Assembly: GCA_015489175.1 (NCBI GenBank)
Contig: WGAI01000059.1
Span: forward strand, 22,286 to 86,285
Source of the DNA: Caldifarciminota bacterium
GTDB taxonomy: Bacteria > Hydrothermota > Hydrothermia > B15-G9
DNA: 64,000 nucleotides
Reading direction: 5' to 3'
The stretch's first letter is position 1. Each line of letters opens with the position of its first letter. The notes under the pieces are model-generated. The model did no database searches, had not been told where the DNA came from, and saw only the letters and a list, made by a program, of their open reading frames with translations. Position numbers and translations under genes: made by a program. Below are positions 40,165 to 46,882 of this stretch, in pieces.

Positions 40165-40254
40165 TGTGCAGTGACAAAGTTGGAATTTCGATTAGCTGGC
40201 TATATGATTATCTGGGCAATAATTTTGGTTCGAAATAAAAGGGGGAGGGAAAAT

Positions 40255-40626
40255 ATGGAATCGATTGAGCAAAAGGTAAAGGCGATACTGGCTGGAATTG
40301 TGAGAGATGTCGAGGGTATAGAAGGGGCGTTGCTTGTGGATAACAATGGTTTTGTTCTTTCGTCCAGTGGCATAGTTGCTCAAAGTGATCTTGATCTTAT
40401 CGGGGGTATCCTCACATCCCTTGCGAATGTTGCCATAAAGGTTGGAGAGGAGCTTGATACCGGGGGAATCAATGGATTAATAGTTGAAGGGGGCAAAAAA
40501 CAGATCTATATGAGGAAGATAGGCAATTATAAAACTTTGATAATCATATCCAAGCGTGAAACTCCTATCGGCATGGTGACCTACATAGCAAGAAAATCCG
40601 AGCCGATGATAAACGAAGTGCTCTAA
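40255..40626 (+). CDS. Roadblock/LC7 domain protein
   Basis: [69 protein letters not shown] ggggagg upstream. Confidence 0.88.
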   Translation: MESIEQKVKAILAGIVRDVEGIEGALLVDNNGFVLSSSGIVAQSDLDLIGGILTSLANVAIKVGEELDTGGINGLIVEGGKKQIYMRKIGNYKTLIIISKRETPIGMVTYIARKSEPMINEVL

Positions 40627-40642
40627 CAGGGAGGGAGCTAAA

Positions 40643-41146
40643 ATGGGAATTGAGGAAAAGGTTAAGGAGAGGCAACTAAAGGCGACCAACATTTTCATAG
40701 CTTCATTTATCGCGGGTCTTAATGAGATGGGACTCCTGAACCAGGCGAATGTGCTATGGGCGTCACGGCGGGCAGGCCGGTCCCTGAGTGAATGCGCAAG
40801 GATCAGGGGATTTGTGGATCAGGCTCCCGCTGATGTTTACGAGAAGGCCAAATTTTTCCTCGAAAAGCTTGTCGAGATGCTCGATTTGGCCGTTCGCAAG
40901 GAGATAAAGCTTGAAGGTAACATACTTAGCATAAAAATCTACAAAAACACATGTAAATTCTGTCCCAAGGGAGTTGGTGGGGCACAGCTTGAAGGCACAC
41001 TTTGTCCGTATCCAGGTATGATGCACGAGTATCTAAAAAAGTTGCTTGAGGGGCAGGCTACTGTGGAAATGGTGACCCATGAAAGGGCGCCTATGGTTCA
41101 GGACAATGAGGGGTGCCACATAGCGTTCAAGATAATACCTGCCTGA
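40643..41146 (+). CDS. V4R-like cysteine-containing protein (partner of Roadblock gene)
   Basis: KNTCKFCPKGVGGAQLEGTLCPYPGMMHEYLKKLLEGQATVEMVTHERAPMVQDNEGCHIAFKI resembles the V4R C-terminal Cys pattern. Confidence 0.6.
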   Translation: MGIEEKVKERQLKATNIFIASFIAGLNEMGLLNQANVLWASRRAGRSLSECARIRGFVDQAPADVYEKAKFFLEKLVEMLDLAVRKEIKLEGNILSIKIYKNTCKFCPKGVGGAQLEGTLCPYPGMMHEYLKKLLEGQATVEMVTHERAPMVQDNEGCHIAFKIIPA

Positions 41147-41150
41147 TTTC

Positions 41151-41175
41151 AAAGGGCGGCCGAAGGCCGCCCTTT
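41151..41175. terminator. Bidirectional hairpin between convergent genes
   Basis: AAAGGGCGGCC-GAA-GGCCGCCCTTT. Confidence 0.88.
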
Positions 41176-43489: not shown

Positions 43490-46400
43490 ATGAGGAAATT
43501 CATATTCGGTGCAATAATGGCTCTGGCAGTCGCAGGGCAAGCCGCGGCAGATGACGCGGTGTATGTGATAATCGTTCCTGATTCGTTGGTGGAACAGGTC
43601 AGGCCTCTCGCAGAGTGGAAGATGAAGAAGGGGCTTCCGACAAGGATAGTCCCGCTATCTGAGTGTGGCAGCAGTCCATCCAGCATAAGAAACTATTTGG
43701 TAGAAGCTTACTCGTCATGGACTCCACAACCGCGCTATGTGCTTCTTGTAGGCGACCCTGACATAATACCGTTCGGCAATGTGGATGGAATAAACACGGA
43801 CAGCTACTACGCAAATGTGAGAGGCGATTTCAAAAACGAACTGATAGTGGGTCGATTCTCAGTAGCCACAGCTCAACAAGCGGCATACATGGTGTATAAA
43901 ACCGTCATGTATGAAAGTGCTCCTTTTATGGACGACACGCTGTGGTTTATGAAGGGCATGACGATTGTCCGAGAGGACGGCGATCAGGACGATTCGCTTT
44001 ACTACTGGTATGACGCTCGGATGGCGCACAGGTTATGGCGGGATCGGGGCTTTGTGCACATAGATTCGCTCTCGAGGTTTCGTGGGAACAACGCCAACGA
44101 CATCCTCAATGGGCTGAATGACGGCAGAAGCATAGTGATATTCAGGGGACAGTCTGTGGGGCACTGGTGGAGCCCATTCGATGTCAATGTTGACAACATG
44201 CAGCCGAGCTACAAATGGCCATTCGTTATAGGAGCCACATGCAGGACTATCTCGCTCGGCGGCGAGCACAATATGGACAAGGAATTCACTCTGGCAGGTA
44301 ATATCGACAATCCTAAAGGAGCGATAGGGTATTTTGGCACAACCACTGTGACCAGTCATGGCGCATGGCGAAGGAGCTATGTCACAAGAGGTTTTTTGCT
44401 TGCTATGTATGGTATGGATGAACCCAAAACACTTGGGGAGGCCGCAGAGGCAGGCAGGATGTATCTGTATCAGCAGACAGGCACACTTCAGGACTATTAC
44501 GGGTTCCAGCTTATCGGAGATCCAGAGTTGAATCTGTGGACGCACACGCCCATGAGGCCCATCCTAAGCTATCCATCTGTCGTCAGGTTCAACATGGATG
44601 ACACGGTCACTGTAGCGGTCCATTATCCTGACGGCACACCTGTCACAGCCGCTCTTGTCTCAATTCACACAAGGGACAATTCAGATGTTTACGAATTCGG
44701 CTACACGGATAACAACGGCAGAATCTCACTTGTCATTCATCCCCATACAATCGACACGCTTGAGCTCGCAGTCTCCGGTAAAAACCTCATGCCAACATTC
44801 AAGAACATATTGGTCATCACGGAAGGGCCATACTTGACATTGCAGGACGATAGTGTATCCGAGAATTACGGCAACCTTGACGGCTATCTGAACCCCGGAG
44901 AGAGAGCTATTCTTGCAGTTAAATTCAGGAATGTGGGGATGGATACCGCAAGAGGGATCAACTTTAGGTTAACCACAGAAGACACAGGCTATGTGACCTT
45001 AATAGATAGTCTGGAGTATGTGCCTCAAATCGGGCCCGATGAGATAGTGGAGATAGATTCTGCGTTCTTGTTTGAAGTTAGCAGCTCATTACACAAATCG
45101 GCTGACCTCCACTTTATGCTAACGGCGACTGACGGCAGTGGCGACACATGGCGCATGGATCTGCCTCCCGTTCATGTCTATACGCCGATGGCTGATATCG
45201 AGACCATCGTGATAAATGACTCCGCACAGGGGAACGGTGATGGGAGGTTAAGCCCCTTAGAGCATTTCAACCTGTTACTGAATATCCGCAACGCCTCACC
45301 GACGGGGGTTGATAGCCTTACAGGCAGCGTTCTGTATGAGGGCAACGAGATAATCCCCGTCACAAACACGGCATGGTTCGGCAGGTTTGAAGGAGATACT
45401 TCCGTCTGGGGAACCCCTGTTGAGATGATAGTTTCTAACACGGCAAGCGCAGGTGACACTGTTACGATCAGAATTGAGCTGATAGGTGAGGGGGTTACCT
45501 ATTCCTATGTGGACACGGTGGAGTTAACCCTTGTCATCGGCACAACGCACGATCCATACGGGCCGGATCAATACGGTTATTGGGCATACGACAACACCGA
45601 CAGCTCTTCCATGCTCGCCCCACAGTTCCAGTGGTTCGAGATTGCGCCATCGGCGGGTGGGCCTGGCGAGATAGTGAGTGAAATAACCAACGAGGACGCC
45701 GATACTGTGACCGTAGCGCTGCCGTTCAGGTTCAAGTTTTACGGCCTGACTTACGACTCTATTGGACTGTGTTCCAACGGGTTCATGGAGTTCCAGCGCT
45801 CATCTTACAGGTTCGGAGATAACGCTCAGATACCCAATACAGGGCCGCCGCGCAGGATGCTGGCTCCTTTCTGGGACGACCTCGATCCTTCGCTTGCGGG
45901 TGACATCTACCAGTATTACGATGCGGAAAACCATCGCTGGATCGTTGAATTTTACCAGGTCGCACATTACGGCATGAGTAACATCAGGGAGACATTTCAG
46001 GTTCAGCTTCTGGATCCAGCTTATTATCCGACACCGACAGGCGATGGAATCATTTTGTTCCTCTACGACCATGTGAGTGATGCAAGTTCTGCCACGATCG
46101 GCATCGAGGACCACACAAACACGCGTGGCATACAGTATGTGTTCAACAACGACTACCACATCTCGTCCGCACCGATCGAGGACGGGCGAGCAATCATGTT
46201 CTCGACGCAGCTTCCGGCTTACTATCCAATGCCAAACATCAACCTCCTTGAAGTCAATGTGAGCGACACCGTCAACGGGAATGGAAACGGGCTGCTTGAG
46301 CCGGGCGAAACCTTTGCGATCACGGTTCTTCTGGCAAATGTGGGTGGGATAACTGTCCACGATATTATCGGATCGTTGACGAGCGACGATCCTGATATCT

Positions 46401-46882
46401 CAATCTTAATGGGAACAGCGAATTTTGGTGATATCGACTCCCTTGGAGGCATCACATCGAACGAAACGCCGTTTATCGCACGGCTACGGGATACGGTATC
46501 AGACACAACTATAACGATGTTACTTCACATCACATCTTCTGACCCCGCCTATGAAAATGACTTTACGATAGAGCTGAGCAATCTGCTTCAAGGCATATCC
46601 GAGGATGGTGCAGAAGCGGTCAAATTTATGGCACCACGCATTGAAAACGGCGTAGCTCAAAATCTTCTGTTGATAAGTTTCTCCATACCAAAGAGCTCGA
46701 AGGTAGGCGTTGAACTCTTTGACGCATCGGGAAGGCGAGTTATGGCGACGAAACGGCAGCTTTATTCCCGCGGCAGTCACACGATTTCAGTACCTGTAGC
46801 GGGATTTAGATCAGGCGTCTATTTTGCGGTGGTGCAGATAGGCGATATGCGGTTCTCACGCAAATTTGTAGTCTTGAGGTAG
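43490..46882 (+). CDS. Secreted C25 (gingipain-like) peptidase with type-IX-like C-terminal sorting tail
   Basis: VYVIIVPDSLVEQVRPLAEWKMKKGLPTRIVPLSE...YVLLVGDPDIIPFGNVDGINTDSYYANV...IGATCRTISLGGEHNMDKEFTLAG...GYFGTTTVTSHG; C-term LFDASGRRVMATKRQLYSRGSHTISVPVAGFRSGVYFAVVQIGDMRFSRKFVVLR. Confidence 0.93.
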   Translation: MRKFIFGAIMALAVAGQAAADDAVYVIIVPDSLVEQVRPLAEWKMKKGLPTRIVPLSECGSSPSSIRNYLVEAYSSWTPQPRYVLLVGDPDIIPFGNVDGINTDSYYANVRGDFKNELIVGRFSVATAQQAAYMVYKTVMYESAPFMDDTLWFMKGMTIVREDGDQDDSLYYWYDARMAHRLWRDRGFVHIDSLSRFRGNNANDILNGLNDGRSIVIFRGQSVGHWWSPFDVNVDNMQPSYKWPFVIGATCRTISLGGEHNMDKEFTLAGNIDNPKGAIGYFGTTTVTSHGAWRRSYVTRGFLLAMYGMDEPKTLGEAAEAGRMYLYQQTGTLQDYYGFQLIGDPELNLWTHTPMRPILSYPSVVRFNMDDTVTVAVHYPDGTPVTAALVSIHTRDNSDVYEFGYTDNNGRISLVIHPHTIDTLELAVSGKNLMPTFKNILVITEGPYLTLQDDSVSENYGNLDGYLNPGERAILAVKFRNVGMDTARGINFRLTTEDTGYVTLIDSLEYVPQIGPDEIVEIDSAFLFEVSSSLHKSADLHFMLTATDGSGDTWRMDLPPVHVYTPMADIETIVINDSAQGNGDGRLSPLEHFNLLLNIRNASPTGVDSLTGSVLYEGNEIIPVTNTAWFGRFEGDTSVWGTPVEMIVSNTASAGDTVTIRIELIGEGVTYSYVDTVELTLVIGTTHDPYGPDQYGYWAYDNTDSSSMLAPQFQWFEIAPSAGGPGEIVSEITNEDADTVTVALPFRFKFYGLTYDSIGLCSNGFMEFQRSSYRFGDNAQIPNTGPPRRMLAPFWDDLDPSLAGDIYQYYDAENHRWIVEFYQVAHYGMSNIRETFQVQLLDPAYYPTPTGDGIILFLYDHVSDASSATIGIEDHTNTRGIQYVFNNDYHISSAPIEDGRAIMFSTQLPAYYPMPNINLLEVNVSDTVNGNGNGLLEPGETFAITVLLANVGGITVHDIIGSLTSDDPDISILMGTANFGDIDSLGGITSNETPFIARLRDTVSDTTITMLLHITSSDPAYENDFTIELSNLLQGISEDGAEAVKFMAPRIENGVAQNLLLISFSIPKSSKVGVELFDASGRRVMATKRQLYSRGSHTISVPVAGFRSGVYFAVVQIGDMRFSRKFVVLR

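Follow-up and report, generated by a model that had tools for sequence, protein, structure and literature searches.

TRAPP is a eukaryotic vesicle-tethering complex in which subunits of the Bet3/V4R fold are coupled with longin-type subunits related to Roadblock proteins, the two types binding each other as well as a Rab GTPase. Bet3 has been proposed to descend from a prokaryotic V4R ancestor (PMC2253512). V4R, ATC hydrolase, HNOB and MetOD1 have been grouped as related, with a shared cysteine cluster (PMC5847659). On the Roadblock side, 328 of 749 MglB homologues were not linked to MglA in one survey (PMC4316618). In Asgard archaea (PMC10933270), GTPase genes are generally not in operons with Roadblock, longin or TRAPPC3 genes, and the published account, so far as it was available to us, describes no Roadblock–TRAPPC3 operon. 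A literature search for V4R with Roadblock, mainly among freely accessible papers, found no V4R–Roadblock operon either.

Here we describe a pair of genes from an uncultured WOR-3 bacterium (Caldifarciminota), known from a metagenome-assembled genome. The pair shares with the Asgard repertoire the presence of both folds in one prokaryote; unlike that repertoire, as far as it is set out in the available part of the account, the Roadblock gene and the TRAPP-fold-like gene here form a conserved bicistron.

Layout and conservation of the gene pair

The analysed stretch of DNA, referred to as the window, is 64,000 nucleotides long. The features of the locus are as follows.

40180..40208, forward strand: putative sigma-70-type promoter, TTGGAA-N17-TATGAT (from sequence; alone not above shuffle expectation)
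40241..40249, forward strand: purine-rich ribosome-binding site of the Roadblock gene (from sequence)
40255..40626, forward strand: Roadblock/LC7 protein, 123 aa (Pfam, PDB and structural matches, given below)
40629..40637, forward strand: ribosome-binding site of the second gene (from sequence)
40643..41146, forward strand: 167-aa protein, remotely V4R/ATC-hydrolase/TRAPP-fold-like (AF2 model, Foldseek and profile comparisons)
41151..41175, forward strand: perfect 11-bp hairpin separating the pair from the convergent ETF genes (z −2.7; without a long T run)

Both reading frames are thus as an earlier note on this DNA had placed them, separated by a gap of 16 nt. The Roadblock gene probably starts at the ATG at 40255, because a purine-rich ribosome-binding site precedes this codon and because the longer, GTG-initiated frame (40171) covers the promoter-like element. 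That element reads TTGGAA-N17-TATGAT in the locus of the closest species (L004) and TTGAAA-N16-TATGAT in a third (L005), despite the different upstream gene there, such that a TTGRAA-N16/17-TATGAT element and a hairpin stand at corresponding places in all three loci. The hairpins of L004 (z −4.1) and L005 (z −3.7) differ from that of the window in stem or loop. A search after the pair for an intrinsic terminator and its T run found only the conserved hairpin, which is the probable transcription boundary of the pair.

Beyond the hairpin lie convergent genes for ETF alpha and ETF beta, and the gene 5′ of the pair is ComEC, except in L005, where we read the sequence as a tRNA nucleotidyltransferase-like protein replacing it. 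As ETF alpha is kept downstream in L005 despite this exchange, the pair has moved or stayed as one unit. Elsewhere in the window (43490–46882) a Peptidase C25 (gingipain-type) protein is encoded; it is 1130 aa long and has a Por secretion tail that scores below threshold.

The second gene, which we call the partner gene, was found in 3 of 147 genomes of the phylum by profile search and in 3 of 100 by sequence search, all of one genus, and it directly follows the same Roadblock gene in each of the three. An all-genome scan with the partner, reaching close relatives only, returned just two related MAGs. Between the window and L004, dN is 0.03 for the Roadblock gene and 0.02 for the partner, with dS ∼1.0 and changes mostly at third positions. 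By these sequence comparisons both genes are under purifying selection. The two form a bicistronic unit, and their pairing is conserved.

Sequence and predicted fold of the partner protein

No sequence family or entry of Pfam, NCBIfam or PDB matches the 167-aa partner, and a plasmid search and a BFVD viral fold search with it were also empty. Even at E 10 no relevant Pfam or NCBIfam model (V4R, TRAPP or other) was returned; PF02830 (V4R) gave no match up to that value for any of the three orthologues, and PF14196 (ATC_hydrolase) gave no match either. A Val_tRNA-synt_C match (E 0.05) was rejected since it spans just 26 residues of one helix.

The AF2 model, built from an alignment of 3 sequences, has a pLDDT of 80.8 and a pTM of 0.79, with the elements in the order H-H-H-H-E-E-H-E-E-E, one helix being four residues long. 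Its best V4R/TRAPP-type Foldseek matches have probabilities of 0.94–0.99, TM scores of ∼0.40–0.51 and E-values of ∼1e-2. They include Thor-TRAPPC3 (7yh3; prob 0.99, TM 0.51/0.54), fly TRAPP (7b6d; prob 0.99, TM 0.51) and the sensor domains of MopR, DmpR and PoxR (best prob 0.95–0.97), all at E ∼1e-2. Four designed proteins outrank the V4R/TRAPP entries in the same list, and BcsD is also present in it. The partner profile scored 21.0 against 30 V4R proteins of the same phylum, compared with a permuted maximum of 17.7 (n = 60). With small V4R alignments, one per group, no profile signal was seen, as the query consists of three sequences; a pooled alignment and a second family were required.

This second family (P0003) was found through another pair in the same genome (L010:1453-2296, G000:C49), where a Roadblock gene is followed by one for a 147-aa protein. 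Homologues of the latter occur in six genomes from three WOR-3 families, the studied genome included, and directly follow a Roadblock gene in all six. The P0003 and partner profiles align in register from end to end (score 28.7, a value reached by none of 100 permutations), and the two combined score 30.0 against ATC_hydrolase-type proteins, with a permuted maximum of 17.2 (n = 100). In two proteins (G048:C48, G072:C195), PF02830 and PF14196 match the same ORF.

The resemblance of the partner to V4R/TRAPPC3 (Bet3), PoxR/MopR and Thor-TRAPPC3 lies in a predicted alpha-rich N-terminal half and a small sheet with a cysteine cluster, at TM ∼0.5. It differs from V4R/TRAPPC3 in being unrecognised by PF02830, in standing alone at 167 aa, in being confined to one genus, and in its incomplete glycine doublets. 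Such doublets in helices 2 and 5 are typical of Bet3/V4R (PMC2253512), and in the partner they are half present (G45xxxS49, G125xxxE129). The earlier suggestion of a V4R-like C-terminal half holds as a remote V4R/TRAPP-type match, detected by both structure and profile comparison; the likeness is invisible to Pfam, NCBIfam and PDB sequence searches. Remote membership of the V4R/ATC-hydrolase/TRAPP-fold superfamily is, on the modelled fold and the profile–profile comparisons, supported but not proven.

It could be argued that the fold call is wrong, and that the partner is a lineage-specific, small, cysteine-rich metal protein of another fold, co-transcribed by chance with an orphan Roadblock gene. 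The lack of any sequence family match and the weak Foldseek E-values favour this, but several unrelated V4R/TRAPP entries are among the best structural matches and the profile links to V4R and ATC proteins are permutation-controlled; we consider such an error rather improbable.

Another view of the same matches would make the partner an ATC-hydrolase-type enzyme (a C–S bond hydrolase) that is linked with Roadblock through its expression or its assembly. The combined profile does match ATC-type proteins, and ATC_hydrolase is the best Pfam match of two P0003-family members, L112 and L113 (E 0.055 and 0.066), as well as matching the ATC-like protein of L133, described below (E 1.4e-4). However, every ATC_hydrolase match is below the curated cut-off, the partner's relatives scoring 14.5–23.3 bits against a gathering score of 28.1, and the cysteines have been lost in several P0003-family members. 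An enzyme of this type thus seems very unlikely. The partner seems to have the cysteine cluster in common with ATC_hydrolase (PF14196) and MetOD1 (PF18546) and is linked to them by profile through P0003; what separates it is that its family stays below the cut-off, and no enzyme activity is implied.

The cysteine-containing sequence quoted in the earlier note is exact. C51, C104, C107, C121 and C158 are invariant in all three species, the last four lying in the C-terminal half. Zn-binding cysteines in the corresponding region of Thor-TRAPPC3 and PoxR fasten the sheet to a helix, around a cavity for ligand (PMC10933270), and by analogy a metal or ligand site formed by C104, C107, C121 and C158 is plausible. 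Within the P0003 family, L112 has four cysteines in its C-terminal half, one of them within the same CPY motif as in the partner, and L108–L111 have none there. Several family members being without cysteines, a metal is therefore not universal.

The Roadblock protein and the small GTPases

The Roadblock protein passes the PF03259 gathering score (40.3 vs 23 bits, E 2.7e-10), and in the PDB its sequence matches archaeal Roadblock and MglB. Its AF2 model (pLDDT 74) has the alpha-beta Roadblock fold and matches MglB in Foldseek with E 1.6e-8 and a TM of up to 0.76. The protein misses the NCBIfam equivalog cut-off for MglB (34.8 vs 200 bits), the sole NCBIfam MglB model that it matches being apparently of Thermus type. 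By inference from its family, the 123-aa protein probably homodimerises.

There are five Roadblock matches in the genome, and an MglA GTPase gene follows only the copy on contig C33. By the usage of PMC4316618, the copy studied here (C59) counts as an orphan MglB-like Roadblock. It resembles other orphan MglB/Roadblock-LC7 proteins in its Robl_LC7 domain and MglB-like model, and differs from them in that the gene after it is V4R-like and not mglA.

The genome encodes two MglA-like GTPases elsewhere, one on C33 with its own MglB and a second, orphan one on C24 (L103:1468-2055). The latter is flanked by a PCC-domain gene and a DUF4388-like gene, with no Roadblock neighbour, and no link between it and the studied pair was found. 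The existence of these GTPases bears on the possibility that the pair is a TRAPP-like regulator. An MglA-like GTPase would then be bound by the Roadblock dimer, and its exchange or hydrolysis would be modulated by the V4R-like subunit, much as Bet3-type subunits flank longin subunits in TRAPP. The closeness of the Roadblock model to MglB and the Foldseek matches of the partner to TRAPP subunits point the same way. Against it, the Roadblock protein is far under the MglB cut-off, and no small GTPase gene adjoins the studied pair or the related pairs inspected. We regard a GTPase regulator of this kind as unlikely. The more specific form, in which the two proteins make a stable heteromer regulating an MglA-like GTPase, as a prokaryotic TRAPP-like core, is quite improbable; if true, such a core would predate or parallel the eukaryotic one.

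Related loci and the proposed function

Apart from these pairs, 46 loci were defined by V4R/ATC proteins, with Roadblock playing no part in their choice. Three of them have a Roadblock gene just upstream, where 0.05 would be expected by density; for any Roadblock gene in the flanks the expectation is 0.34 in 46, and as the count is post hoc the P values are to be read loosely. The three are arranged as follows.

L043: Roadblock, then a V4R gene, with a 4-nt overlap
L047: Roadblock, cysteine protein, V4R, V4R
L133 (G087:C106): response regulator-DUF4388, Roadblock, ATC-like protein, [NiFe]-hydrogenase small and large subunit genes

Direct profile matches of the partner to the Roadblock-linked cysteine proteins of L133 and L047 (L047:578-1066) were not significant. 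L133 is a possible hydrogenase-linked Roadblock sensor, judging from its gene order, and a search for Roadblock with hydrogenase, mainly among freely accessible papers, found no paper. In L112, L113 and L133 Roadblock either comes after a response regulator with DUF4388 or is part of a fusion with one; in L113 (L113:1933-3057) a response regulator-DUF4388-Roadblock fusion is followed by a V4R-like partner gene.

Other V4R proteins have different architectures. In L011 (G000:C37), and also in L056, L059 and L050, the C-terminal half of a V4R domain protein reads as a GGDEF domain. L048, L051–L053 and L057 encode proteins of 400–420 aa with an N-terminal V4R domain and a similar-looking second half, present in several copies per genome in one WOR-3 family.

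Recurrence of related pairs across the phylum makes it probable that the pairing is functional. The context of the relatives (response regulators and DUF4388, with a [NiFe]-hydrogenase in one case) suggests that the module serves signalling or sensing and not vesicle tethering. Thus, of the proposal that the pair is a counterpart of a TRAPP/Roadblock unit, the fold-level resemblance and the recurrent pairing stand; a TRAPP-like signalling unit with a GTPase is conjectural.

The explanation that we favour, with a probability of about 0.5, is a V4R-like sensory subunit acting through a Roadblock dimer. The divergent V4R/TRAPP-fold protein would probably bind Zn or another metal through C104, C107, C121 and C158, and the cluster would shape a hydrophobic pocket for a ligand, the pattern seen in PoxR and Thor-TRAPPC3. 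The subunit may then sense a small hydrophobic or redox-related ligand and dock on the Roadblock dimer, altering what the dimer binds. In the relatives the likely target would be the response-regulator/DUF4388 protein; in the studied genome it may be one of the two MglA-like GTPases encoded elsewhere.

A recurrent bacterial pair offers a small system for testing direct V4R–Roadblock interaction, and it suggests what some of the numerous orphan Roadblock proteins of bacteria may be partnered with.
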